The notes beneath the pieces were generated by a model. It did not search any database. It was not told where the DNA came from and was given only the letters and a program-made list of their open reading frames with translations. A program made the translations under genes and the position numbers. 64,000 bases of DNA from Muribaculaceae bacterium (GTDB lineage: Bacteria > Bacteroidota > Bacteroidia > Bacteroidales > Muribaculaceae). Positions 1,135 to 15,192 of this stretch are shown here, piece after piece. The DNA lies in NCBI GenBank assembly GCA_017651515.1, contig JAGCCU010000067.1:25998-89997 (forward strand). The letters run 5' to 3'. Within the stretch, counting starts at the first letter, position 1; each line of letters opens with the position of its first letter.

Positions 1135-1671
1135 ATGGAGAAGATTATAGCAGACATTAGAGAATATGCAAAATCAAGGTGGATTTTTGGAGAATTGCAT
1201 GGCATCGCGCATTGGGATAGAGTATATGAAAATGGCCTAATGCTTATAACTCCGGAGGTCAACAAAACAGTCGTAGGACTATTCGCATATCTTCATGATT
1301 CTTGCCGATATGATGACAGTGAAGACATCGATCATGGCGCAAGAGCGTCAGAATGGTTGAATTCTCTCAGAGATTCGCTGTTGAGAAGTTTAAACGATGA
1401 TGAATTCAACTTATTGAAAGAGGCTTGCCGACTGCATACTATTGCACACAAAACGGGTAATCCCACCATTGACGCATGTTTTGATGCCGATAGGCTTGGC
1501 CTATGGCGATGTGGCATAATTCCTGATCCCAAACGGATGGCAACTGAGAAAGGGAAATATATTGCTGCCACAACAAATTATGAATCTCTCACTGGCATCA
1601 AGTACACTTTCAAACAACGAATGTATCTCAGTCTACGAAGATTGAAGTATAAATCAACCCTATACCCCTGA
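1135..1671 (+). CDS. HD-domain phosphohydrolase family protein
   Basis: This 178-residue protein has the metal-binding pattern of the HD superfamily: His22/His26 in the first helix, the HD pair His54-Asp55, His101 and His105 in a later helix, and a final DADR motif at residues 117-120 that supplies the last metal ligand. HD proteins of this compact size are usually metal-dependent phosphomonoesterases or phosphodiesterases; the substrate cannot be predicted. It lacks a fused nucleotidyltransferase or RelA/SpoT domain. It follows repeat copy B by about 45 bases and is the last gene before the tRNA-Arg gene, which is on the other strand. A role as cargo of an integrated element is an inference from position only. 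Confidence 0.8.
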   Translation: MEKIIADIREYAKSRWIFGELHGIAHWDRVYENGLMLITPEVNKTVVGLFAYLHDSCRYDDSEDIDHGARASEWLNSLRDSLLRSLNDDEFNLLKEACRLHTIAHKTGNPTIDACFDADRLGLWRCGIIPDPKRMATEKGKYIAATTNYESLTGIKYTFKQRMYLSLRRLKYKSTLYP

Positions 1672-1681
1672 CTATCAGCAC

Positions 1682-1706
1682 AAAAAAAGACGGCATCCCT
1701 GCCGCC
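1682..1706 (-). terminator. Rho-independent terminator of tRNA-Arg
   Basis: GACGGCA (1689-1695) and TGCCGCC (1700-1706) form a hairpin with a TCCC loop and one mismatch; on the minus strand it is followed by seven T (1688-1682). It lies 5 bases beyond the 3' end of the tRNA. Confidence 0.8.
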
Positions 1707-1711
1707 CCCAG

Positions 1712-1785
1712 TGATTCCGTTGGGATTCGAACCCAAGACCCACAGCTTAGAAGGCTGTTGCTCTATCCAACTGAGCTACGGAACC
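1712..1785 (-). tRNA. tRNA-Arg, anticodon TCT
   Basis: Read on the minus strand, the 74-base sequence folds into a full cloverleaf: acceptor GGTTCCG/CGGAATC with discriminator A, D arm GCTC/GAGC, anticodon stem ACAGC/GCTGT around the loop CTTCTAA, and T arm TTGGG/CCCAA with TTCGAAT. The anticodon TCT (plus-strand 1749-1751) reads AGA codons. CCA is not encoded. The 3' end faces the accessory block at 1-1671, the side on which integrative elements that use tRNA genes usually insert. Confidence 0.97.
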
Positions 1786-1949
1786 AAGCCTTGTTTTAAA
1801 ATTCGCGGCAAAATTACTAAATTTATGGCAAATAACAAGGCACGTTGGCAATTAATTTCGCATGCAAATCGTAGTAATAATAATTTGGGTGTGTTATGAA
1901 GAGTTATGACTAAAGGTCTAAAATATTTTTTGCAATTATAGAAAGGCCG

Positions 1950-2648
1950 TCAGAAGTTTACTCCGATATTTATTGTCAGGCATCCTGTGTGGGTGTCATC
2001 GAAAGTATCTTGTCCCACGTTGGCAAGTCCGATATCATATGCCACCTCGGCATAGCCGATGCCGTAGCTAACACCGCATCCAAGCTTTATGCCTGCATCG
2101 AACCTGTTAAAGTAACCATTGCTGTAGCTGCTAAATGCTTGACGCTCGCCGTAATCTTTAATATCACCCGAAATGCCGCAAGCCAGGAACGGGCCGGCAA
2201 AAGGTTCTATTGACAATCCTGTCCGTGTGAAGTGTTTGTATTTGAGCAGAATGGGTAGTTCCATATAGCCAAGGTCATAGGTGAACTTGCCTCCATTTTC
2301 AGCAATGTTGTTGCTTTTTCCGCCCTTTTGTGAAAAATATAGTCCGCTTTCCAGAAAGATGGGGGTATATCGACTAAGTTGTGTGCCAACGGCAACGCCA
2401 ATGTTGAGACCGGTTTTCAAGCTGCTGCCGTCAAGTGCCGGTGCATCGCTGCGAACGCTGCCTGCATTGAGTCCCAGACGCAGGCCGTAATAGGTGTTGT
2501 GCCACGAATAGTAATCATGTGGGTTACCACGGAAGTTAAGTCCCGGTTGCCGCACGACTACGCGGGTACGTGGACGTCCTCCATACATCTGTGCCATTCC
2601 GCTAAGTGCGACAATTGCACAAATAGCCAATGTGAAAATCTTTTTCAT
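1950..2648 (-). CDS. Outer-membrane beta-barrel protein (porin family)
   Basis: A 232-residue exported protein. The ATG at 2648 is chosen because it opens a classical signal peptide (MKKIFTLAICAIVALSGMAQ) with cleavage about residue 20. After a basic linker, the rest is a series of amphipathic strands with alternating aromatic and polar residues, ending in a hydrophobic strand that closes in Phe (NIGVNF), as in small barrels of the PF13568 outer-membrane protein family. These proteins sit in the outer membrane with no defined substrate. It is transcribed alone; a weak TGACTTTG element lies upstream at 2738-2731. Terminal Phe and length fit an intact gene. Confidence 0.8.
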   Translation of the reverse strand: MKKIFTLAICAIVALSGMAQMYGGRPRTRVVVRQPGLNFRGNPHDYYSWHNTYYGLRLGLNAGSVRSDAPALDGSSLKTGLNIGVAVGTQLSRYTPIFLESGLYFSQKGGKSNNIAENGGKFTYDLGYMELPILLKYKHFTRTGLSIEPFAGPFLACGISGDIKDYGERQAFSSYSNGYFNRFDAGIKLGCGVSYGIGYAEVAYDIGLANVGQDTFDDTHTGCLTINIGVNF

Positions 2649-2957
2649 AGTGATATGCATTTATAGTTTTTTCATCGCATTTGACCTATGTTGAATAAAA
2701 ATGTTTAGCAGTCGCGAATACTTAATAGACCAAAGTCATTAAAATATCGACGAATTTTCATACAGGATGTTTTTTAGGCAATGTAAAATAAAAAGACGAT
2801 TGAAAAAATGCTTTGATTGAATTAATGAAAAATGTTTCTATGTTGAGTCATGTCGTCTTCAAAAATAAACTTTGACTCAAGAAAATACTTAAACAAGTTT
2901 GTTTTTTCACTCGGCTTGCTCTAATTTTGCATTTCAGAAAGCTATGTGTCGTAAGTA
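2649..2957. other. 309-base divergent intergenic region with an 8-bp inverted repeat
   Basis: The gap separates the barrel gene (minus) from the cation efflux gene (plus). It holds a perfect inverted repeat, TTGAGTCA at 2843-2850 and TGACTCAA at 2873-2880 with 22 bases between, which ends 18 bases before the promoter of the efflux gene, and a looser pair AAGACGA/TCGTCTT around 2791-2859. No open frame of note. Confidence 0.55.
2898..2929 (+). promoter_or_regulatory. Promoter of the cation efflux gene
   Basis: TTTG at 2898-2901, a 20-base spacer and TAATTTTG at 2922-2929 match the Bacteroidetes consensus; the ATG follows 29 bases later. Confidence 0.75.
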
Positions 2958-3875
2958 ATGATTAACCGTGAGCGTGAAATATATCGCGTGACTGTGATAG
3001 GTGGCTTGGTGAATGCCGTGCTGCTTGTCGCGAAATTTGCAGCCGGCGTTCTTGGTCACAGTGCCGCAATGGTTGCCGATGCCATGCATTCGCTGTCTGA
3101 CTTTGTTTCTGATGTAGTGGTGCTCGCATTTGTACGTATCAGCAACAAGCCTCAGGACTCGTCGCATGACTATGGTCACGGCAAATATGAGACAGTGGCA
3201 GCGACGATTATTGGAGTAGCATTGCTTGTAGTGGCGTTGGGCATCATATGGTCGGGTGTTGAGCGCATCGTGTCATGGTGGCACGGAGAGGAACTGGCCG
3301 CACCAGGTATGATAGCCCTGTGGGTGGCATTGTTGTCAATAGCTCTTAAGGAAATTACTTACTGGTACACGTTGCGAAAGGCTCGGCAATGCGATTCATC
3401 GGCTCTGGAGGCCAATGCATGGCATCATCGCAGCGATGCATTGTCATCGGTGGGTACTACCATCGGTATCGGAGGTGCCATTTTGCTTGGACGTCGCTGG
3501 ACGGTACTCGACCCGATAGCATCTGTCATAGTGGGCGTTGTGATTGCCTTTGTTGCTTTCAGAATAATCAAGTGTGGCTTAGACGACTTGACAGAGCATA
3601 GTCTTCCAGACTCGACCGAAAAAGAAATACTCGACATCGTGATGCAATATCCTGACGTGAGTAATCCTCATAATTTGCGTACGCGTCGCATCGGCAACAG
3701 TTTTGCCATCGAGCTTCATCTGCGCATGGACGGTGCAATTTCGTTGGCATCTGCGCATAAGCGTGCATCGGCTATTGAGCGCGATCTGCGCAATCGTTTC
3801 GGAGCTGCAACCCACATTACTTTGCACCTTGAGCCGGTCAAAAAAGTCGAAGATATTTTTGTCGAGAAAGAATAA
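2958..3875 (+). CDS. Cation diffusion facilitator family transporter
   Basis: A 305-residue inner-membrane antiporter that exports a divalent metal (Zn, Fe, Mn or similar) in exchange for protons. It has about six hydrophobic segments in residues 10-205 and a soluble C-terminal domain (about 210-300) rich in His, as in the CDF family. Metal-site residues are visible: Asp41, His44 and Asp48 in the second helix, the HDYGHGKYE loop at 70-78, and HHRSD at 156-160 in the fifth helix. Length is typical of FieF-like members. It has its own promoter at 2898-2929, and the promoter of the riboswitch transcript starts inside its last codons. The metal carried cannot be read from the sequence. Confidence 0.93.
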   Translation: MINREREIYRVTVIGGLVNAVLLVAKFAAGVLGHSAAMVADAMHSLSDFVSDVVVLAFVRISNKPQDSSHDYGHGKYETVAATIIGVALLVVALGIIWSGVERIVSWWHGEELAAPGMIALWVALLSIALKEITYWYTLRKARQCDSSALEANAWHHRSDALSSVGTTIGIGGAILLGRRWTVLDPIASVIVGVVIAFVAFRIIKCGLDDLTEHSLPDSTEKEILDIVMQYPDVSNPHNLRTRRIGNSFAIELHLRMDGAISLASAHKRASAIERDLRNRFGAATHITLHLEPVKKVEDIFVEKE

Positions 3876-3888
3876 ATCTGTAATTTTG
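3858..3888 (+). promoter_or_regulatory. Promoter of the cobalamin-riboswitch transcript
   Basis: TTTG at 3858-3861, a 19-base spacer and TAATTTTG at 3881-3888. The -33 box lies inside the end of the upstream cation efflux gene. Transcription would start near 3895, about 35-45 bases before the riboswitch core. Confidence 0.8.
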
Positions 3889-3929
3889 CATCGTGATAAT
3901 GAGGTGGTCGTCATGAGTATTCGCTCCAC

Positions 3930-4085
3930 TGACGGCTGAAAAGGGAACCAGGTGAGAATCCTGGGCAGAACCCGCTGCTGTATTATCCATTTTTGTCGTT
4001 TGCCGTTTAAACGGTCACTGTCGGGACTACCGATGGGAAGGCTAAGGCAAACAACCGGATTAAGCCAGAAGACCTGCCGCGTTAT
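3930..4085 (+). promoter_or_regulatory. Cobalamin (B12) riboswitch
   Basis: The conserved core of the cobalamin aptamer is present in order: GGGAA at 3943-3947, GGTG with AATC at 3951-3960, CAG-aa-CCCGC-tg-CTGT at 3966-3982, GTCACTG at 4014-4020, GATGGGAAGGC at 4032-4042, and the B12 box AAGCCAGAAGACCTGCC at 4062-4078. Family knowledge says binding of adenosyl- or other cobalamin lowers expression of the gene downstream, usually B12 uptake or B12-replacing functions. Here the only gene downstream is the 2169-residue secreted protein at 4295. No TonB receptor or corrinoid gene follows. Confidence 0.93.
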
Positions 4086-4294
4086 CGAAAGATTTTCGCG
4101 CTCTCGTGGAATTAGAGCCGGAACACGACATGTTTTCTGCCGTTATTGCGACACGAATAATGCAGTGGTAACTCTGTGCAAAGTGGAGTTGGGTATATTG
4201 CATTTGTAGGGGAACAATATATATTGTGTTTCGTCCATTCCAGCGTGAGCCAGGAATGGATATTATTTATTAATTAACCTATAATTACTAACAA
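4086..4294 (+). promoter_or_regulatory. Long leader behind the riboswitch, with palindrome and hairpin
   Basis: About 210 bases separate the B12 box from the ATG at 4295. They hold a perfect 14-base palindrome ACAATATATATTGT (4214-4227) and a perfect hairpin TCCATTCC/GGAATGGA (4234-4241 and 4253-4260, 11-base loop), 34 bases before the start codon. No run of T follows the hairpin, so it is not a standard terminator; it could act on translation as the switching part of the riboswitch. No SD sequence is present. Confidence 0.5.
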
Positions 4295-7200
4295 ATGAAA
4301 CACTTAAGATTGTTCTTCAAATCAATTGTACTGCTCATGGCATTCATCGTGCTTGCCGTGCCGGCTCACGCCGACCGCGTGGTGAAGCAGTTGCAATTCG
4401 GTAAGCAGACGATTGAAGTAGGTGCAGACGAAGTAATTACGTTCCAGGATATGAACGGATATACAGGAATATCTTCGTCGAGCAGCAACAACTCTCAATC
4501 GCTCACGGTGTTCAAGCCCGCCGAGGGTATGGCGATACAAATTACTTTTGCCAACCTTGACGTGCGTAATGACGGCACCAACTGGCCTGCTTACGTTAAT
4601 GTGTATGCAGGTGACCCCGATCCCGATGGGACCTTTGCCTATGCTCCCTCAACAAGTGGTGTCACAGCTTCCTCCACGCTGCCTGAAGGCAATGTGCTTG
4701 AGAAACTTGATGGTACTTATGAGAACCTGACTTACACGGCCACCGATGCTAGTGGTATCATCTCGGTAGGCTACTTGTACCGTTATGCAAAGGCTATTCA
4801 AGGGTGGAATGCGACGGTGAAGTGCATCACTCTCGAAGATATGGTTGTGACAGGGGCGGCAAGTAATTACGAAAATGTAGAAGCTGCTACCACATCCACC
4901 GAGGCTATCAATTTCGCCACGGCACAAATTACATCCACTGGGGTAATGAATGCTGATAATGTGACTGGCATTACCTTTAAAACAACTACCAATGAGAATG
5001 CAATTGATCCATTACAGATGCGGCTCTATGCTGGATCGCAACCTTCGTTCAAGGGAGCAACGGCTCTTGATGCCATAGTGGCTGCTGATGGTGACGGCTA
5101 TACGTTCAGCCTCAACCAGCCGTTGAGTGAAGGTCTCAATCAATTCTCAATTGCTGGCGAATTCCTTGGTGACGCTGTTCCTGGAACCAAAGCTGCCATC
5201 GCAATCACTAAGATTGCAACGACAGGTATGCCTGACGGCGTTACGCCTTTTACCGCTGGCACTCCTGTTGAGGTGGCAAAACCTGCCATTGCATTGATTT
5301 CTACTATCCCTCAAGTCATCACTGTGGGTGATGTGCCATACAACTTCTACGATGATGGTGGAAATGATGGTAACATCACGCAAGGCTTCGAAGGACAGAT
5401 AACATTCGTACCGGCAACTGAGGGTATGGCAATCAAGGTGGATTTCTCCATACTTGACCTGTTCAATACATCGACAGTTGGGTATAACGACGTATTTAAG
5501 TTCTATAATGGTCGCGAGGTAAATGAGGCAAACCTAATCACTACTTTGCTTGATGAACCAGAAATAGTGAAATCGACTGCCGAAGATGGTTCAATGACTG
5601 TTTACCTAAAGAGCACAGCCGGTTATCCTAAGAGTGGTTGGGAAGCCGTTGTGAGTCAGTTCCTGCCTGGTGACATGACATTCAGCGGCTTGGAAGTGAC
5701 TGCAGCATCTACCGAGACTGTCTCGGCAGGCGACACAGATGCCCAGATGCTTCTGATAGATATCCAGACCGATAATACCGCCAATCCTCTTCATCTCAAT
5801 GGCATTAATCTGAGCACTCTCGACACGAAGAATATTGCCAAGGTCCGTGCCTATTACTTAGGCAATAAGAGTGATTTCGTGACCACCAATCCATTGGGTG
5901 AGACTCAGGTCAATGGATTAAGCATTGCCATTTCATGTGATAAGGAACTCATTGAGGGCCATAACTATGTAGCGGTGGTATTGGATCTGAATGAAGAAGG
6001 TGTCAATGATGAAATCGTAAGTCTGTCGCTCAATGGTGTCATCCTTGGAGAGACGGCACATGCGCCTATAGTCACGATGACTGCTAATCGCACTATTTAC
6101 AATCTGTGCCGAGCCACTCAGGGCAGTCATGGCCATAATATCAAGAGTGCTTGGGCGTTCACTAACACTGAAGGCTACAACGGCAAGTATGAGACTGTCG
6201 ATACCGACTACATCGTGACATTCACTCCTGTTGAGTCGGGCTATATGGCCGAAATTGACTTCTCGAGTTTTCACGTTTACTATGCAAGTTCAAGCAATGG
6301 TACACACGCTGTCTTTGAAATTTACAGTGGCACCGAGGTGAATAGTGCTAACTTGTTATGGAATCTCAAGGACAATAGTGAGCAGGATGTGGGCCCCGGC
6401 CATAAGATTCGTTCTACTGCTGCCGATGGCTCGTTGACAATAAGATTCAATCCCAAGACAACAAGCAGCTACTATGCTCTTGCTGGATGGATGGCAACAG
6501 TGACTCCATTCAAGAATCATGATATGGAGATTAAGGACATTACTGTCAATCAGACAAGCACTGCTGAACTTGCTCCTGGTTCAACCAATGCGCAACTCAT
6601 CGACTTCGTTGTTAAGACCGAAGGAACTCTCACCACTAAGGTGCTCAATAAGGTTAACATCGACCTCAAGGGCAGCGAGGCCTCGGTAAGCAAAGTAAAT
6701 ATCCTTTATAATAATGTGAATGAGTTTGCCAGTGCAATAGCTTTTGGCAGTGTAGAGAACCCTGCCGCGAGCGAGGTAGAAATCACTGGCGAGCAGGCTC
6801 TTGCCGAGGATGCCAACTACTTCTGGGTGACTGTTGATGTGAAGGGTGATGCCGCAGCCGAGGCACAGGTTGATGCCAAGCTCCTCAGTGTTACCGATGC
6901 TAATGGAGTTGTCACTACCGTTGAGAATGGCGATCCCGATGGCGCGCGTGTGGTTAAATACATCTTCTTGATGCAACCCGACACAACCGTCATTACCATC
7001 ACCAACCCGCTTATGTTCTATGACGATGGCGGTGCTGAAGGCAAATTGTCGGCCAATCTCAGTGGCGTTGTAATCTTTGTTCCAGGAGTCGAGAACTCGG
7101 CTGTCCAGATTGATACCAAGGGAACTTTCTCGATTGGCTCGGGCAAAATGATGATTTATAGTGGACAAGGGGTTGATGCCAACAACATACTTGGAACCGT

Positions 7201-10200
7201 TACTGGCTATTCAACTACCAATGGCCCTGTGGGGTTGATAAGCAAGGCCGAGGATGGTGCGATTACCATCGAGTTCAAGGGTAACTCGGCCGCTACTCTC
7301 GATGGTTGGGCTATTGAAGTTAGTTTGCATGAGAAGACTCCTTATACCATTGAGTCGGTTACAGCAACCAACACTACAGATGATGTAATGCGCAATTCTA
7401 CGGACAACGTGATGCAGAAACTCAAACTGGAGGTTAGCGGTGACAAGGATCCTATCACTGTCAACAGCGTGAAGTTCAACACTGTCGGTACTTCCAGCAT
7501 AAGCGACATCACCGCTGCTAAACTCTACTATACCGAGCATAGTGACATCTTCAACAACGAGCACTTGCTTGCTACAACCACTATTGCCGATGGTGAGAAT
7601 GTCATAACTCTTGATGAGCCATTGCAGATTGCTGACAATGGCGACTATTACTTGTGGCTCACTTACGATATCGCCGAGGATGCTGTTCTGGGCAATGCTG
7701 TTGCCGCTCAGACTGTATCTTTCAACAATGGTGAGGATATTGCCGTTACTGGTGATGTTGCTTCACGCAATATCAAGGGTGGTATTAAGGGTAACTTTAT
7801 CATTGGTGACAGCGATAATGCAAACTATCACAGCTTTGCCGAGGCTATTGCTGCCCTGCAAGGTGGTGTTGAGGGTGCAGTGACCTTCCAGGTCGAGGAC
7901 GGCACCTATGCCGAAAATATTTGGTTCTCTTCAATTCCAGGTGCAGGCGAGCAGAACACAATCACATTCACTAGTCTCAGCGGCAACCGTGGCAATGTGA
8001 CAGTTGCAGGATCTGGCAGTTCAGAATATATGCCAGGTTCTTCGGCATATAAAAAGGGCGTGGTATTCATTGAGAACACTCCATACGTCACTATCGAGAA
8101 GATGAACTTCATCCCCGCACGTGAGAGTGAGTATAACTATGTGGTACAAATCTATGACCGCAGTCGTCACTTTACTTTGCGTGACTGCTATGTTAAGGCC
8201 ACTCCTGTGACCAGTGGTTATAGCGGCATTTACTTGGTGAAGACTTCTGCTGGTAGCGAAGACAAGACCAACAATGACTATGCAACATTTGAGAACAACA
8301 TTCTCGAGGGCGGTTACATGGGCTTTGCACTTGGCGGCACCAACTATGTGGCTCTTACCCGTGAAAAAGGCCTCGTGGTGCGTGGCAATACAGTCAATGA
8401 AGGTTCTAAGGGTATCTATGTCTATGACGAGGATGATATGGTGATAGAGAATAATACTATCTATCAGTCCACTCTTCAAAAGACAGGTTATTGGGGTATT
8501 GACCTTGCTCGAGTACGTGGCAACGTAGTTGTTGCTGGCAATAAGGTGACAAGTGCCACGACTTATTATAGTGGCGGTATTCAGTTGCGTGGCGAGAGCT
8601 ATGGCACTGCTGAGCAACCTATCCTTGTTTACAATAACGTGGTGAACATAACCAATTCACCAAGTGCAAGCAGTGCGGGTATTGAGATTGACGGCGACAA
8701 TTCTTATATAGCCCTCTACAACAATACTGTACGCTTGGCTGGCAATGGGGGTTACTGCTACTATACTGCTACTCGCAACCCGAGAACCTACAATGGCATC
8801 AGCCTGCAGAATAACTTGTTCCAGAACTTGACGTCAAGCCCTGTAATGTTCATCCACAGCAACTTTAGCGGAATGGCAAAGTTCACCAACAACGCATTCT
8901 GGGGTGAGAACGTGTTTGACGGTACTTCTGTTGCTGCTCTTAATGAGATGGAAGGTAACAACGGCAACATTGTCGAGCAGGCACAGTTCCTGAGTGATAC
9001 CGACCTGCACTTGTTGGAAGCAGGGAACCTGAATATGGGTCTGCCTGTTGACTTCATCACCACCGATGCCGATGGTGTTGAACGTAATGCTGAAACACCT
9101 ACAGTTGGTGCTTATGAGTATGCCGAGGTTGTTGTTGAAAAACCTGAGATTGCCGAGGGCTATCCAACGGTCACCGATATAACTGAGACTACCGCTGTCG
9201 TAAAGAGCAAGTGGAGTACGAGTGGCAAACTTTACACATTGGCTAAGCTTAGTGAACCGACCCGTGAAGACGTTGCTCCTTCTGTCGAGGAATTGTTGGC
9301 TACCACTGGTCAGGACATCAATGCCGATACTGAGCTTTCGACAACTATTTCTGATTTGACACCAAATACCACCTACAAGGTTTATATGCTTGCAGTGAGT
9401 GCTCTGGAGGTTGAGAGTGACGTTATTGAGACCGAACCCTTCACCACTTTACGTCATATTGAGCCTCTAATCGTTACCGTCAACAAGGTGGCAGCTACTG
9501 TCAATGCCGGTGAGAGCGCAACAATTGCTCCGGTAATCGCTGGCGGAGATGAGCCTTACACCTATGAGTGGCGTGACCAAATGAATGAGGTAGTGGGCAG
9601 CGAGGCCGTACTCGAGGTGTCACCTGAATATTCTTATGGCTATCGCTTGACTGTGACAAGTGCCGATGGACAGACCGTGACGGCCAAGACTGGTGTGCGC
9701 GTAATTGGTGATGCAGTCACTGCTTCGATTGATGACAACTACCTCGCAGAAGAAAGTCACTGGGCATACGACCCGACCACCGAAGCAATGGTTGAAGATG
9801 GTTTCTACAGTGGTTCTTATTACTTTAATACAGATGCATGGCCAAGCTACAATTATTGGTACGGCTATTCATTCAGCAATGAGACAGCAACAACCTATGC
9901 AAGCCTTGTTGACCAATGGCACAGCGCAGTAGGCGAGGGGCATAATGGTTCATCCAACTTTGTGGTTGCTTTCCCCGAAGGCCAGTTTGTGGAAATAACC
10001 AATAGCGAAGATGGTGACGTGCTCCGAGGTGTTTATGTTAGCAACAACGCCTATGCTTACAATGGAATGGCAAACGGTGACGGCTTTGCTACAGCCTTTA
10101 CTCAAGGCTCATGGTTCAAGCTCACCGCTGTGGGCTTCAACGGCAACGAGCAGACAGGGACAGTGTCGAAGTATCTTGCAGATTACCAAAGCCAGAACGC

Positions 10201-10804
10201 TCTCGACCACTACATCCTTGACACTTGGCAGTGGATGGATCTCCGCCCGTTGGGCAAGGTTACCAAGGTGCGTTTCACGCTCGATGGCAGCGACAAGGGG
10301 GACTACGGCTTGAATACCGCTGCTTACTTTGTCATGGACGACTTCAACTGCGAACGTGACATGACCGAGGAATCAGTAACAGTACCGATGGGTGAATCGA
10401 CCATTAATCTTAGCGATTTCTTCACTCTCGTTAATGATGGCAGCACAATCATTTACGATATGGAGGAGGTTGCCGAAGGAAATGGACGAGACACTTCAGT
10501 AGGGACTAATTTAGTGTTGACCTTGACTGATGAGGGCACTATTAATGTGAACGCTATAGAAGATGATGGCGATCAAGCCGTGATAGTGTCAGCCACTCAG
10601 AAGGGTCAGACTCAATATGTTAAACTTGCAGTCTCAGTAGGTATTAATACGAATGTAAATACTCTCAATGCAGAAGGAAACGTGGAGAGCATCACATACT
10701 ATGATGTGTCAGGTCACAGTAGCGACAAACCGTTCGATGGTGTTAATATTGTTGTTACGCATTATAACGATGGCAAGGTATCTACTGCCAAGGTTATTCG
10801 TTGA
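4295..10804 (+). CDS. Giant secreted multidomain protein (CUB-like, BNR-associated, beta-helix, FN3, DUF4465-like, type IX sorting signal)
   Basis: The 2169-residue product starts with a signal peptide ending AHA-D near residue 27 and has no lipobox. Four CUB-like modules (about 30-178, 346-456, 610-745, 896-1012; FYDDGG openings and GW(E/M/A) endings) alternate with four domains like the neuraminidase N-terminal domain BNR_assoc_N (about 180-335, 458-600, 750-885, 1013-1160). A right-handed parallel beta-helix fills about 1167-1612 (repeated NNTI/NNVV turns), then an FN3-like (1615-1722) and a PKD/Ig-like domain (1723-1805). Residues 1805-2020 match DUF4465 (YVSNNAYAY, MANGDGFA, DTWQWMDL, AYFVMDDFN). 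The last 50 residues (YYDVSG...DGVNIVVTHYNDG...KVIR) look like a type A C-terminal sorting signal of the type IX system. It is monocistronic, behind a cobalamin riboswitch and before a strong terminator. Function is unknown; binding of a corrinoid or glycan at the cell surface is inferred. Confidence 0.9.
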   Translation: MKHLRLFFKSIVLLMAFIVLAVPAHADRVVKQLQFGKQTIEVGADEVITFQDMNGYTGISSSSSNNSQSLTVFKPAEGMAIQITFANLDVRNDGTNWPAYVNVYAGDPDPDGTFAYAPSTSGVTASSTLPEGNVLEKLDGTYENLTYTATDASGIISVGYLYRYAKAIQGWNATVKCITLEDMVVTGAASNYENVEAATTSTEAINFATAQITSTGVMNADNVTGITFKTTTNENAIDPLQMRLYAGSQPSFKGATALDAIVAADGDGYTFSLNQPLSEGLNQFSIAGEFLGDAVPGTKAAIAITKIATTGMPDGVTPFTAGTPVEVAKPAIALISTIPQVITVGDVPYNFYDDGGNDGNITQGFEGQITFVPATEGMAIKVDFSILDLFNTSTVGYNDVFKFYNGREVNEANLITTLLDEPEIVKSTAEDGSMTVYLKSTAGYPKSGWEAVVSQFLPGDMTFSGLEVTAASTETVSAGDTDAQMLLIDIQTDNTANPLHLNGINLSTLDTKNIAKVRAYYLGNKSDFVTTNPLGETQVNGLSIAISCDKELIEGHNYVAVVLDLNEEGVNDEIVSLSLNGVILGETAHAPIVTMTANRTIYNLCRATQGSHGHNIKSAWAFTNTEGYNGKYETVDTDYIVTFTPVESGYMAEIDFSSFHVYYASSSNGTHAVFEIYSGTEVNSANLLWNLKDNSEQDVGPGHKIRSTAADGSLTIRFNPKTTSSYYALAGWMATVTPFKNHDMEIKDITVNQTSTAELAPGSTNAQLIDFVVKTEGTLTTKVLNKVNIDLKGSEASVSKVNILYNNVNEFASAIAFGSVENPAASEVEITGEQALAEDANYFWVTVDVKGDAAAEAQVDAKLLSVTDANGVVTTVENGDPDGARVVKYIFLMQPDTTVITITNPLMFYDDGGAEGKLSANLSGVVIFVPGVENSAVQIDTKGTFSIGSGKMMIYSGQGVDANNILGTVTGYSTTNGPVGLISKAEDGAITIEFKGNSAATLDGWAIEVSLHEKTPYTIESVTATNTTDDVMRNSTDNVMQKLKLEVSGDKDPITVNSVKFNTVGTSSISDITAAKLYYTEHSDIFNNEHLLATTTIADGENVITLDEPLQIADNGDYYLWLTYDIAEDAVLGNAVAAQTVSFNNGEDIAVTGDVASRNIKGGIKGNFIIGDSDNANYHSFAEAIAALQGGVEGAVTFQVEDGTYAENIWFSSIPGAGEQNTITFTSLSGNRGNVTVAGSGSSEYMPGSSAYKKGVVFIENTPYVTIEKMNFIPARESEYNYVVQIYDRSRHFTLRDCYVKATPVTSGYSGIYLVKTSAGSEDKTNNDYATFENNILEGGYMGFALGGTNYVALTREKGLVVRGNTVNEGSKGIYVYDEDDMVIENNTIYQSTLQKTGYWGIDLARVRGNVVVAGNKVTSATTYYSGGIQLRGESYGTAEQPILVYNNVVNITNSPSASSAGIEIDGDNSYIALYNNTVRLAGNGGYCYYTATRNPRTYNGISLQNNLFQNLTSSPVMFIHSNFSGMAKFTNNAFWGENVFDGTSVAALNEMEGNNGNIVEQAQFLSDTDLHLLEAGNLNMGLPVDFITTDADGVERNAETPTVGAYEYAEVVVEKPEIAEGYPTVTDITETTAVVKSKWSTSGKLYTLAKLSEPTREDVAPSVEELLATTGQDINADTELSTTISDLTPNTTYKVYMLAVSALEVESDVIETEPFTTLRHIEPLIVTVNKVAATVNAGESATIAPVIAGGDEPYTYEWRDQMNEVVGSEAVLEVSPEYSYGYRLTVTSADGQTVTAKTGVRVIGDAVTASIDDNYLAEESHWAYDPTTEAMVEDGFYSGSYYFNTDAWPSYNYWYGYSFSNETATTYASLVDQWHSAVGEGHNGSSNFVVAFPEGQFVEITNSEDGDVLRGVYVSNNAYAYNGMANGDGFATAFTQGSWFKLTAVGFNGNEQTGTVSKYLADYQSQNALDHYILDTWQWMDLRPLGKVTKVRFTLDGSDKGDYGLNTAAYFVMDDFNCERDMTEESVTVPMGESTINLSDFFTLVNDGSTIIYDMEEVAEGNGRDTSVGTNLVLTLTDEGTINVNAIEDDGDQAVIVSATQKGQTQYVKLAVSVGINTNVNTLNAEGNVESITYYDVSGHSSDKPFDGVNIVVTHYNDGKVSTAKVIR

Positions 10805-10865
10805 TTATAAAAAATGATGAATTAAATCTAATCCTTAATAATATTATATAGTAACAACTTGCGGG

Positions 10866-10901
10866 AGCCACTCTGATGAGATATCAGGGTGGCTTGGTTT
10901 T
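10866..10901 (+). terminator. Strong terminator after the giant secreted protein
   Basis: AGCCACTCTGAT (10866-10877) pairs over all 12 positions with ATCAGGGTGGCT (10883-10894), one pair being G-T, with a 5-base loop, followed by TGGTTTTT. Confidence 0.9.
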
Positions 10902-10975
10902 TAATACGCTGCACGATATAGATGAATGCTAATTGAAATCCAAGAAACGATACTGCCAACTCATTACTGGAATTA

Positions 10976-11007
10976 TTTGCTTTTTATTATAATCCTGTGT
11001 AAATTTG
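10976..11007 (+). promoter_or_regulatory. Promoter of the LRR/dockerin protein
   Basis: TTTG at 10976-10979, 20-base spacer, TAAATTTG at 11000-11007, 85 bases before the start codon. Confidence 0.7.
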
Positions 11008-11092
11008 CAGATACTTATAAACATTATACTTGTAAAATGTTTTGGTGAGTATTTTAGAAACATCTTTGAATAACCCACATAAACCGCTGAAA

Positions 11093-13150
11093 ATGAATAA
11101 ATCATTTATCTCGTTATTTACACTGTTGATAGCATCATTACTAATGCAAGTCTCCGCTTACGACTTTATGGTTGATAGCTTGGCTTACAATATCAATAGC
11201 GATGGCACTAGTGTTACTTTAACTTATACTGAATACTATTACAATTATTCTTCGAATTATTCTGGCTTAAGTGAAGCCAATATACCGGAAACGGTGACTT
11301 TCAATGGTCAGACTTACTCCGTCATATCAATCGACCGCTATGCCTTTTCAGGCTGCGGCATGTTGACGAGCGTCACCATCCCTAACTCCGTCACTTCAAT
11401 CGGCAACTATGCATTCTTTGAATGCAAAAGTCTGACGAGCGTGACAATCCCGAATTCTGTCAATTCAATCGGCAACGGGGCGTTCCGGGATTGCAAATGC
11501 TTGACGAGCGTAACCATCCCAAATTCTGTAACCTCAATCGGAAGTGCTGCGTTTCGTAGCTGCACTAACCTGACGACAATTACTGTAGATACCAATAACA
11601 CAAAATATGATTCACGGAATAATTGCAATGCCATTATTGAGACTGAGACAAATACGTTAATTGCTGGTTGTATGAATACCATCATCCCGAACTCCGTCAC
11701 ATCAATAGGCGAATATGCGTTCTATTATTGCAGCGGTTTGACGAACGTATGCATCCCGAAATCCGTCTCGACAATCGGCAATAATGCATTTTCTGGCTGC
11801 TCGGGTCTAACGACAATTACTATAGATGCCGATAACATTAAATATGATTCACGGGATAATTGCAATGCCATTATTGAAACTGAAACAAATACGTTGATTG
11901 ATGGTTGTATGAATACTGCCATTCCGAACTCTGTTACTGCTATTGGCTACTGTGCGTTCTCTGGCTGCACTGGTCTGACGAGCGTCACCATCCCTAACTC
12001 TGTCATTACCATTGGCGACTATGCGTTCTTATTCTGCAAAGGCCTGACGAGCGTGACCATCCCTAACTCTGTCATTACCATCGGCGACTATGCATTTGGT
12101 GGCTGCTACGGCCTAACGAGCATTACTATCCCGAATTCTGTCACATCAATAGGCAATAGTTCATTCATTGACTGCGGCGTCCTGACTAGTGTGACTCTAA
12201 CCGGTAGCGGCAGTTGGAATGAATGGAAACTAAATAGAATTTCGGCAGCACAAATAAAGACGCTGAACGTTGGCAGCAAAGTGACTGAGTTGGGTGATTT
12301 CGGATTCAATCCCGATGTAGTGAAAAGTTATGCCGAGACACCGCCCACATGCGCAGAAAACACCTTTGCCACCTACAATGCACCATTGCATATTCCATCG
12401 GCCTCTACAGTAGCTTATTTCACTACTCCCTATTGGCAGAACTTCAGCAATCTAGTTAATGATATCAACGAGAAGGTGTCGCTCGACAAGACATCGGTTG
12501 ACCTGAAAGTCTTTAGTGAAGTACAACTGAATTCAACTGTCAGTCCTGCAAGCATGGCTGACGATGTGCTGTGGTGCTCGACAAATCCTGCCGTGGCAAA
12601 GGTTGACGAGAATGGAAAGGTTACGTTGGTAGGTACGGGAGAATGTGACATATTTGCCTACCTGTCATCGATACCAGCCGTATATGCATCATGTCTTATC
12701 TGCTCACATTCAGGTATCACACTAGACAAGACCGAAGCTGTAGTTGCACCCAACAAGATTATTACCCTTACGCCAAGATATGACTTGGCAGTAACCGATA
12801 TCGTGGCTACATCGAGCGACACCCATGTGGCGATTGCTCGCGTGGTGACAATTGACGACGTGAAGAAAGTGCAGGTAGTTGGTGTTAATCTTGGCACAGC
12901 CACCATCACCGTGGCGAGTGCTGACGGTAATGCTGAGCCGGCCACCTGCGAGGTGACAGTGCGGAACATCGGTGACGGCGACCTGGACGGCAACAGCATT
13001 GTCGATGTGGAGGATGTGAATGCTGCTATTAATGTCATTTTGAAACTGAAAACCGTAAGTGACTATCCTGGCAACGGCGACATGGATGGCAATGGGATTA
13101 TCGATGTTGAAGACGTGAACTCAATTATTAATATCATCTTGAAACTTTAA
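11093..13150 (+). CDS. BspA-type leucine-rich repeat protein with Ig-like domains and C-terminal dockerin repeats
   Basis: The ATG at 11093 is preferred to an in-frame TTG at 11042 because it opens a signal peptide of about 22 residues. Residues about 50-400 are LRR_5 (BspA) repeats with the recurring core TSVTIPNSVTSIG-(N/D)-AF-C. Two blocks near 160-210 and 240-290 are near copies of one another (KYDSR-NCNAIIETETNTLI). Residues about 460-615 form one or two bacterial Ig-like (Big_2) domains. The C terminus (about 627-685) has two dockerin-type calcium loops, GDGDLDGNSIVDVEDV and GNGDMDGNGIIDVEDV, each followed by an INVILKL-like helix. LRR_5 proteins are surface adhesins or sensors; dockerins bind cohesins, and none is encoded nearby. 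No type IX signal or lipobox is seen. The M13 peptidase starts 32 bases after its stop. Confidence 0.92.
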   Translation: MNKSFISLFTLLIASLLMQVSAYDFMVDSLAYNINSDGTSVTLTYTEYYYNYSSNYSGLSEANIPETVTFNGQTYSVISIDRYAFSGCGMLTSVTIPNSVTSIGNYAFFECKSLTSVTIPNSVNSIGNGAFRDCKCLTSVTIPNSVTSIGSAAFRSCTNLTTITVDTNNTKYDSRNNCNAIIETETNTLIAGCMNTIIPNSVTSIGEYAFYYCSGLTNVCIPKSVSTIGNNAFSGCSGLTTITIDADNIKYDSRDNCNAIIETETNTLIDGCMNTAIPNSVTAIGYCAFSGCTGLTSVTIPNSVITIGDYAFLFCKGLTSVTIPNSVITIGDYAFGGCYGLTSITIPNSVTSIGNSSFIDCGVLTSVTLTGSGSWNEWKLNRISAAQIKTLNVGSKVTELGDFGFNPDVVKSYAETPPTCAENTFATYNAPLHIPSASTVAYFTTPYWQNFSNLVNDINEKVSLDKTSVDLKVFSEVQLNSTVSPASMADDVLWCSTNPAVAKVDENGKVTLVGTGECDIFAYLSSIPAVYASCLICSHSGITLDKTEAVVAPNKIITLTPRYDLAVTDIVATSSDTHVAIARVVTIDDVKKVQVVGVNLGTATITVASADGNAEPATCEVTVRNIGDGDLDGNSIVDVEDVNAAINVILKLKTVSDYPGNGDMDGNGIIDVEDVNSIINIILKL

Positions 13151-13182
13151 ATATTGAAATAACTATTAACCAAAATACTATA

Positions 13183-15192
13183 ATGATGCGTAAATTTTTG
13201 CTTATGTCACTTTTGGTGACCATGACTATGAATGCAGGTAACCTCAAGGGCGTGGATCGTTCAAACCTCGACCCTTCGGTTTCGCCTGGTGAGAATTTCT
13301 ATCAGTATGCGTGCGGAGGCTGGATGAAGGCAAATCCGCTTGATCCGCAGTATGCCCGTTTCGGTACATTCGACCAGCTTGCCGAGAACAGCCGAGAACA
13401 GTTGAAGGACATCGTCACTTCGTTGGGTACTGGCCATCGCCATGGCTCTATTGAGCAGAAGGTGGGTGATTTGTATAATATGGGTTTAGACTCAGTACGC
13501 CTGAACAATGATGGTTTTAATCCGTTGATTGCAGACCTGGATATGATTGCTAAGAGCAGTAAAAAAGATTTTGTGAAGCTGATAGCCTGGATGCACAACG
13601 GCATAGCAGCGCCGTTCTTTAATAGCGCAGTGATGTCGGACCTAAAAGACTCTAACAACAACCTGTTCTACCTTATGCAAGGCGGACTTGGTATGGGCGA
13701 CCGTGATTACTATCTGGAGAGTGACGCAAATACTGTCAAGGTTCGCGCGGCATATACTGCTTATATAGCCAAGATATTCCAGCTGCTGGGTTACAAGAAG
13801 GGAAATGCCACTAAGGCAGCAAAGAATGTGATGGCAATCGAGACTGAGCTTGCACGTGTGGCAATGTCACGTGAGGAAACCCGCGACTATTCTCGCCTGT
13901 ACAATATGCGCACCATCGAACAGATTCGAAACGACTATCCAAATATCAACTGGGATGAATACTTCGGAGAACTGAACTTGCACAATGTTGAGAAAGTGTG
14001 CTTGTTCCAGCCTAACTCTCTGGCCAAGGTAAACGAACTGCTGGGCAAGCTGAAGGAAGAGCAGATCAAGCAGTATCTAACGTTCAAGTATGTTGATGCA
14101 GCGTCCGAATTTCTGAGCGACGATTTCGTTCAGGCAAATTTCGATATGTACAGCCGTGCCATGAGTGGCAAGCAGGTGATGCAACCACGCTGGAAACGCG
14201 CTCTGAATGTACCTAACTACTTGTTGGGTGAGGCTGTAGGACAACTATATGTAGAGAAATATTTCCCAGCTGATTCCAAGAAGAAAATGCAGAAGTTGGT
14301 AGACAACCTGAAAGTTGCTTTGGGTGAGCATATTCAAGGTCTGACGTGGATGAGTCCAAAGACCAAGGTTAATGCACTGGTGAAACTCAACAGTTTCACT
14401 GTGAAAATCGGTTATCCCGATAAATGGCGCGACTACAGCGGCATTGACATTGATACGTCAAAATCGTATTGGGATAACGTGAAAGCTGCACGTCAGTTTG
14501 AGGCTGCTTACGAATATGGTCAGCTCGGTAAGCCGGTAGATAAAGATCGTTGGCAGATGACTCCTCAGACGGTTAATGCATACTATGACCCATCAACTAA
14601 CGAGATTTGCTTCCCGGCAGCCATCCTGCAACCGCCATACTTTGACCCGACTGCTGACGAGGCTTGCAACTACGGGGCAATCGGCGTTGTTATCGGTCAC
14701 GAGATGACTCACGGTTTTGATGATCAGGGCCGTAACTTCGACCATACTGGCAACATGGAGGACTGGTGGACAAAGGAAGACGCTGACCGTTTCCAAGAAC
14801 TTGCCGACAAGTTGGGTGAACAGTACAGCGCCGAAATCGTTGCTGACGATGTCCATGCCAATGGCAAATTCACTATGGGTGAGAACATTGCCGACCACGG
14901 TGGACTGCGCGTGTCTTACAGCGCTTTCAAGAAAACCGATCAAGGCAAAGGCAACGAACTCATTGACGGTTTTACGCCTGACCAGCGTTTCTTCCTGAGC
15001 TATGCCAATGTTTGGGCAAACAACATCACCAAGGAGGAAATCCTACGCCGCACCAAGGTTGATCCGCACTCGCTGGGCATTAATCGTGTGAACGTTGCTA
15101 TCCGCAACTTGGAGCCATTCTTCAAGGCATTTGATATTAAGAGCGGTGATAAGATGTACCGCGAGCCAGCTGATAGAGTGGAGATTTGGTGA
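13183..15192 (+). CDS. pepO: M13 family zinc metallopeptidase (neprilysin/PepO type)
   Basis: A 669-residue secreted endopeptidase of the neprilysin family, which cuts oligopeptides in the cell envelope. A signal peptide of about 20 residues is followed by the M13 N-terminal domain (DPSVSPGENFYQYACGGW at about 30-47) and the catalytic domain: zinc site HEMTH at 506-510, third ligand Glu567 in GENIADHGG, and the closing tryptophan motif REPADRVEIW at the C terminus. Length and all key residues are intact. No lipobox is seen, so it is probably periplasmic. Two ATG codons stand in a row at 13183 and 13186. It lies 32 bases after the LRR protein with no terminator between, so the two may share a transcript. 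A terminator follows at 15244. Confidence 0.95.
   Translation: MMRKFLLMSLLVTMTMNAGNLKGVDRSNLDPSVSPGENFYQYACGGWMKANPLDPQYARFGTFDQLAENSREQLKDIVTSLGTGHRHGSIEQKVGDLYNMGLDSVRLNNDGFNPLIADLDMIAKSSKKDFVKLIAWMHNGIAAPFFNSAVMSDLKDSNNNLFYLMQGGLGMGDRDYYLESDANTVKVRAAYTAYIAKIFQLLGYKKGNATKAAKNVMAIETELARVAMSREETRDYSRLYNMRTIEQIRNDYPNINWDEYFGELNLHNVEKVCLFQPNSLAKVNELLGKLKEEQIKQYLTFKYVDAASEFLSDDFVQANFDMYSRAMSGKQVMQPRWKRALNVPNYLLGEAVGQLYVEKYFPADSKKKMQKLVDNLKVALGEHIQGLTWMSPKTKVNALVKLNSFTVKIGYPDKWRDYSGIDIDTSKSYWDNVKAARQFEAAYEYGQLGKPVDKDRWQMTPQTVNAYYDPSTNEICFPAAILQPPYFDPTADEACNYGAIGVVIGHEMTHGFDDQGRNFDHTGNMEDWWTKEDADRFQELADKLGEQYSAEIVADDVHANGKFTMGENIADHGGLRVSYSAFKKTDQGKGNELIDGFTPDQRFFLSYANVWANNITKEEILRRTKVDPHSLGINRVNVAIRNLEPFFKAFDIKSGDKMYREPADRVEIW

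Follow-up and report, generated by a model that had tools for sequence, protein, structure and literature searches.

BtuJ1 and BtuJ2 of Bacteroides thetaiotaomicron are lipoproteins of btu operons that are found on vesicles (PMC12751083). Two reports (PMC12751083, PMC13398666) equate their domain DUF4465 (PF14717, IPR027828) with the BtuJ family, document riboswitch control for BtuJ genes and, in some family members, C-terminal tails for export, and give the B12 contacts of BtuJ1 as Tyr245 in the HI loop and Tyr146 in the DE helix. They report a dissociation constant of 0.15-0.85 nM for BtuJ1 and B12, with no value tabulated for BtuJ2 (PMC12751083), and in vitro B12 binding by eight divergent DUF4465 proteins (PMC13398666), while they disagree on anchoring: of 824 family members, 33% are lipoproteins and 38% have C-terminal targeting motifs according to the former, whereas the latter counts more than 70% lipoproteins. 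The locus considered here lies in a 64,000-nucleotide stretch of a Muribaculaceae bacterium (GCA_017651515.1, contig JAGCCU010000067.1; hereafter the window), where a single open frame of 2169 codons (4295..10804, + strand) encodes a DUF4465 protein of 2169 residues, hereafter the giant. With a probability of about 70%, this protein is a giant, modular BtuJ exported by the type IX secretion system (T9SS), which would catch cobamide during starvation and feed it to a BtuG/BtuB-type receptor.

The giant shares with BtuJ1 and BtuJ2 the DUF4465 domain, aligned B12-contact tyrosines, a Cobalamin riboswitch and probable export; it differs from them in its length, the absence of a lipobox, its CUB, BNR and beta-helix modules and its position alone behind the riboswitch. 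Coraliomargarita akajimensis, which lies outside Bacteroidota, provides the best-scoring solved DUF4465 chain, D5EK51 (9HMU). This protein binds B12 (PMC13398666) and, unlike the giant, is a chain of 250 residues. BtuH2 (7BIZ) and 8BLW are likewise B12-binding surface proteins of such loci, with a binding domain different from the giant's; in BtuH2 the binding domain is preceded by Ig-like domains (PMC8941943), as it appears to be in the giant.

A BtuJ-type domain behind a Cobalamin riboswitch

The DUF4465 match of the window protein covers residues 1851-2017 with 169 bits (E 1.6e-49) against a curated cut-off of 25, and the B12-binding-type domain as a whole was placed at residues 1806-2022 (9710..10360, +), close to the residues 1805-2020 proposed in an earlier note made from the DNA alone. 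That note had also called the domain BtuH-like, and this label had to be abandoned. In a search of the PDB at E<=0.01, the DUF4465 part matched six entries only (9HMU, 4JQR, 4E9K, 9FCT, 9QPM and 9I2L), with 9HMU as the best (E 3.4e-29) and with both BtuJ1 (9FCT, E 1.3e-9) and BtuJ2 (9I2L) among them. The entry 7BIZ, labelled "Cell surface protein" in the search and taken by us to be BtuH2, was matched neither by the DUF4465 part (E<=0.01) nor by the whole protein (E<=1), and the genome's own BtuH-like protein (7BIZ, E 1.7e-47) is the product of a separate gene. In an alignment of the domain with BtuJ1, Tyr1920 (codon 10052..10054, +) and Tyr2011 (codon 10325..10327, +) align with Tyr146 and Tyr245 of BtuJ1 respectively. 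Among 21 giants (the window's and 20 relatives), Tyr2011 is kept in 20 and position 1920 is a tyrosine in 14.

The complete B12 aptamer claimed earlier was recovered as a Cobalamin riboswitch (RF00174) at 3885..4095 (+), matched over the full model (1-189) by cmscan with 95.8 bits (E 1.3e-22; gathering score 31.5 bits). On its 5' edge sits a promoter at 3858..3888 (+), composed of TTTG at 3858-3861, 19 nucleotides and TAATTTTG at 3881-3888, a two-part TTTG-N19-TAATTTTG form that we take as the Bacteroidetes promoter. In stretches running from 60 bases before to 20 inside the aptamer start, the -7 element TAnnTTTG was present in 29 of 31 loci, compared to 2.4% of random 80-base stretches of the same loci; for the two-part motif the figures were 20 of 31 and 0.36%. 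These 31 rows are the window and 30 of the 31 riboswitch-linked relatives described below, L047 being left out because the giant's frame is broken there. The frame is also broken in L023 (9001-15473, after 91 codons), in both cases by an assembly error or as a pseudogene. Between the aptamer and the giant gene no TAnnTTTG was found, and a scan for sigma-70-type sites gave a single one (4257-4285), with 19 such sites in 3700-11200 against 12.2 in shuffles. Downstream of the gene, a stem of 14 pairs followed by a T-rich tail resembles an intrinsic terminator (10865..10895, +); this call relies on stem length and position, because terminator-like sites number six, as against 5.4 in shuffles. The stand-alone unit of promoter, aptamer, one gene and terminator-like stem proposed in the earlier note is retained.

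The expression platform seems to work through an upstream arm that occludes the start codon, with a terminator hairpin perhaps contributing. The proposed 5' arm, GTGTTTCGT (4226..4234, +), pairs with ATGAAACAC at 4295-4303 (p 0.025), and the loop of this helix holds a hairpin, CCATTCC/GGAATGG with a T-rich 3' flank (4235..4259, +), to which hairpins before the start codon of several relatives, among the matches listed, are similar. The occlusion is supported by the recurrence of the pairing, as the best start-codon pairing reached p<0.05 in 23 of the 31 riboswitch-linked loci (not in the remaining 8) and in neither of the 2 operon-internal giants, and by arms that change together, TGCCTCATAGTTG with TAACTATGAGGTA in L044 and GTCTCATAA with TTATGAGAC in L041. 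The p values come from 200 mononucleotide shuffles, which is a simple null, and related rows share history.

Recurrence of the pairing and the B12 regulon

The pairing of riboswitch and DUF4465 giant recurs beyond the window. A related-locus search gave 38 loci from metagenome-assembled genomes named Muribaculaceae, Sodaliphilus, Prevotellaceae, Porphyromonadaceae or Bacteroidales, and 31 of them have a same-strand riboswitch no more than 1200 bases upstream, ten of which were rechecked on the locus sequences themselves. The other seven are five partial genes at contig ends (L030, L043, L045 and L052, with 3-85 bases of upstream DNA, and L050, with 767 bases and residues 1680-2168 only) and two giants internal to operons (L031 and L046). 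In the family sample, DUF4465 is present in 127 of 198 genomes, and frames of at least 1000 residues with this domain occur in at least 25 genomes besides the window's own; in 24 of these 25 a same-strand riboswitch precedes the DUF4465 part by 3.2-10 kb, both counts being taken among the matches listed and seven of the 25 genomes overlapping those behind the 38 loci. Outside the family, an order-wide sample of 295 genomes yielded 13 with DUF4465 frames of at least 1000 residues, from nine families, and in 11 of the 13, from eight families, the riboswitch was found upstream (compared by eye). One of the other two, G505, is cut by its contig.

The window's own genome has three Cobalamin riboswitches, one before the giant, a second before a 326-residue DUF4465 protein and a third before a TonB receptor, a propeller lipoprotein and the BtuH-like protein. 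The propeller lipoprotein is BtuG-like (8BLW, E 2.8e-41; labelled "YncE family protein" in the PDB search and presumably a BtuG-BtuH type protein), and the TonB receptor is judged BtuB-like by context. In L031 and L046 the giant itself follows such genes, in the order riboswitch, TonB receptor (685 residues), propeller (381), BtuH-like protein (397) and giant (2146), with identities to the counterparts in the window genome of 73% for the receptor, 70-71% for the propeller and 50% for the BtuH-like protein. In L073, from another family, a riboswitch is followed by a BtuH-like gene and then by the giant. As for the genome's own B12 supply, no match to cobB, the sole synthesis marker searched, was obtained in the 87%-complete assembly. 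The BtuH-like protein of the window's genome (L015 791-1993, -) carries a C-terminal dockerin type I domain (PF00404, E 9.5e-6), and the L040 giant (8779-14961) has a dockerin-like end by eye.

Architecture and probable export of the giants

Domain borders were estimated from an alignment of the 21 giants. A signal peptide at about residues 1-27 (4295..4375, +), read by eye and without lipobox, is followed by about four CUB-like and BNR_assoc_N-like modules at residues 28-1150 (4376..7744, +), their number and borders being estimates. BNR_assoc_N (PF14873) matches the whole protein with E 1.2e-24, over three stretches at E<=1, two of them at E<=0.01 and the best at 1021-1144, and a CUB match at residues 374-451 (E 0.0015) falls under its cut-off. 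A right-handed parallel beta-helix at residues 1151-1615 (7745..9139, +; NosD/beta-helix E 7.5e-7) and FN3-like and putative Ig-like domains at residues 1616-1805 (9140..9709, +; fn3 E 0.0087, under cut-off) then lead to DUF4465. Pfam models are distributed among the 21 giants as DUF4465 in 21, BNR_assoc_N in 21, Beta_helix in 15, CUB in 10 and Por_Secre_tail (PF18962) in 9, the first count being expected because the giants were collected via DUF4465 or via the window giant. A Shiga-toxin-B family name on one of the 21 (E 0.0037) was judged to be a match by chance. Median identities to the window protein are, for the CUB-like parts, 58% (M2) and 54% (M3), and then fall from the Ig-like part (49%) through DUF4465 (46%) and the beta-helix (39%) to the tail (22%).

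The C-terminal domain (residues 2106-2169; 10610..10801, +) resembles a T9SS tail, and the same tail was matched at 13 other places of the genome. TIGR04183, the tail of T9SS type A cargo, is carried by 10 of the 21 giants, the window's not among them, and by 10 other proteins of the window's genome scoring above its cut-off; SprA (TIGR04189), the sole T9SS machinery model searched, is present there with 2718 bits. Since the window's own tail is without a model match, the type IX route is drawn from the relatives, and export by this route, as suggested earlier, is considered likely. No lipobox was seen by eye in the window protein, so it would not be an outer-membrane lipoprotein like BtuJ1 and BtuJ2.

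Variants of this architecture were found outside the family, where stretches from 8 of the 13 genomes were analysed. L072 and L073 combine BNR_assoc_N, a weak beta-helix match and DUF4465, L071 combines BNR_assoc_N, CUB and DUF4465, and L074 (1060 and 634 residues) and L076 (1216 residues) carry DUF4465 and a T9SS tail. L075 (2144-6457) has a beta-helix and two DUF4465 domains; two per frame were also seen in G407, G285, G484, G392, G464, G274, G373, G504 and G313. L070 (frame 1478-10549) and L069 (4-6927), both of genus g111 in family f82, gave no beta-helix match; in its place, a clostripain C11 domain (E 6.2e-51 and 1.3e-53) separates their CUB/BNR modules from DUF4465. The riboswitch is upstream in G417, the genome of L070, and in G314, the third genome of the genus; L069 is cut by a contig end. 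The C11 scan covered L070 and L069. A form of 1333 residues is without modules M1-M3 and keeps M4, the helix and DUF4465, its tail match falling just under the cut-off.

A quick tree built from 51 DUF4465 domains contains a group (Shimodaira-Hasegawa-like approximate likelihood ratio test, SH-aLRT, 97) with all 25 domains of giants, all 4 of mid-size proteins (634-1438 residues) and 1 of the 22 small ones (L091), and the other 21 small domains fall outside it. Its inner forks are weak, L073 sits on a long branch, and BtuJ1 and BtuJ2 were left out. The grouping suggests that giant and small DUF4465 proteins were separated by an old split and not by a recent local fusion.

Proposed function and its alternatives

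The reading of the giant as a corrinoid scavenger, already put forward in the earlier note, remains the best one given the riboswitch, the DUF4465 domain with its aligned contact tyrosines, the conserved pairing of the two and the operon linkage. When cobamide is low in the cell, the riboswitch would no longer block expression of the giant, which would leave by Sec and then by the type IX system, as the relatives' tails and SprA suggest. The C-terminal DUF4465 pocket, whose homology to that of BtuJ1 is established, would then catch cobamide with similar tyrosine-lined loops, the CUB/BNR modules and the beta-helix may act as a long arm for displaying this pocket or for docking it to a surface or a substrate, and the caught B12 would be passed to the BtuG/BtuB-type receptor of the same regulon, a step suggested by the operon linkage in two near-identical relatives.

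Several observations weigh against this scheme. The contact residues vary, the HI-loop tyrosine being replaced by a leucine in L068 and position 1920 being Trp in six and Met in one of the 21 giants, and DUF4465, at 46%, is less conserved than the CUB-like parts of M2 and M3 and the Ig-like segment. The tail of the window protein matched no curated T9SS tail model. The L031 and L046 giants are 99% identical to each other, and the btuBGH-like operon consequently counts about once. As regards the riboswitch, G375, the second of the two exceptions outside the family, has none on the contig of its large DUF4465 gene, and G224, the exception among the 25 family genomes, has its giant cut by a contig end and no riboswitch anywhere in a genome that is 71% complete. 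Finally, a full-length metH was not found in the window's own genome, a weak negative at 87% completeness.

The lengthy modules before DUF4465 might do more than hold the pocket. They could bind or cut a B12-holding substrate, such as a carrier protein, debris or a glycan particle, so that DUF4465 takes the freed cobamide, and we regard this tentatively, as a possibility well below the scavenger reading. The C11 domain of L070 and L069 points in this direction. Where it aligns with clostripain 9CIP, it retains both HGGG and the DVCL/DACL stretch, presumably the catalytic His and Cys sites; against this reading, this protease form was seen in one genus. A second pointer came from a column survey of 27 beta-helices, 21 from the giants and 6 from outside families, in which D1403 and R1432 are retained by 26 sequences, and K1372 and Y1375 by 23, even though the outside helices are 22-41% identical to that of the window protein. 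This cluster may be a ligand or catalytic site. It may also be structural. Invariant in all 27 are N1387, N1416, N1448, N1477, N1507, N1533, D1591 and R1597; an Asn ladder, as found here, is a structural feature of parallel beta-helices. Kinship of the helix to a solved enzyme was considered and rejected, no PDB sequence being matched by a 24-sequence profile at E<=0.01, which also counts against this reading. The broader proposal appears just as doubtful, namely that Bacteroidales under B12 starvation make giant exported proteins in which swappable substrate modules, a beta-helix or a clostripain-type protease, are fused to a B12-binding domain, so that cobamide would be stripped from carriers, cells or particles and captured.

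Slightly less likely is that the giant is released as a soluble cobalophore instead of forming a surface-anchored trap. Its lack of a lipobox by eye would suit such a role, and vesicle-borne BtuJ delivers B12 in a siderophore-like manner in B. thetaiotaomicron (PMC12751083). The expected export route argues for the surface instead. Type A cargo of the T9SS is often attached there. An adhesin or surface-layer protein repressed by B12, with the riboswitch governing attachment or niche choice and the B12 pocket secondary, is improbable. It would account for the bulk of the protein being CUB, BNR, Ig and beta-helix, three such segments being conserved above DUF4465; it fits poorly with the linkage of the giant to btuBGH-like genes or, in another family, to a BtuH-like gene, with the absence of M1-M3 from the 1333-residue form and with L074, L075 and L076, in which DUF4465 and a T9SS tail occur while a BNR_assoc_N match is absent.

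Whether the locus is an undescribed system, as the earlier note proposed, can be answered in part. Literature searches, with supplements, preprints and most subscription papers outside their reach, gave, among the papers listed, no hint of any giant DUF4465 protein with several domains. PMC13398666 makes no mention in its main text of multi-domain, fusion, type IX, Muribaculaceae or sorting, and the available passages of PMC12751083 mention neither "fused" nor "larger proteins". Literature joining Muribaculaceae with BtuG, or a cobalamin riboswitch with the T9SS of Bacteroidales, was likewise not found; without the restriction to Bacteroidales, riboswitch and type IX secretion led to one transcriptome paper, on Flavobacterium psychrophilum (PMC9723704). 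Since DUF4465 binding of B12, riboswitch control of BtuJ and C-terminal tails are in print, what stands is an architecture for which no description was found, not an undescribed system. Beyond small lipoproteins, the BtuJ class would thereby take in giant, modular, exported proteins, and these retain the riboswitch in the window's family and, within the sampled order, in eight more. If the giants bind B12, these gut and rumen bacteria would spend 1000-3000 residues on the capture of a single vitamin, and whether bacteria actively strip B12 from carriers could be tested with the protease-bearing form.

In the window, the giant gene is preceded on its 5' side by a gene for a cation-efflux transporter and followed on its 3' side by one for a BspA-like leucine-rich repeat protein (11042-13150), which has a Big_2 match and whose C terminus looks dockerin-like by eye. 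The TTG at 11042 listed as the start of this next open reading frame is probably too early, an ATG being found at about 11093.

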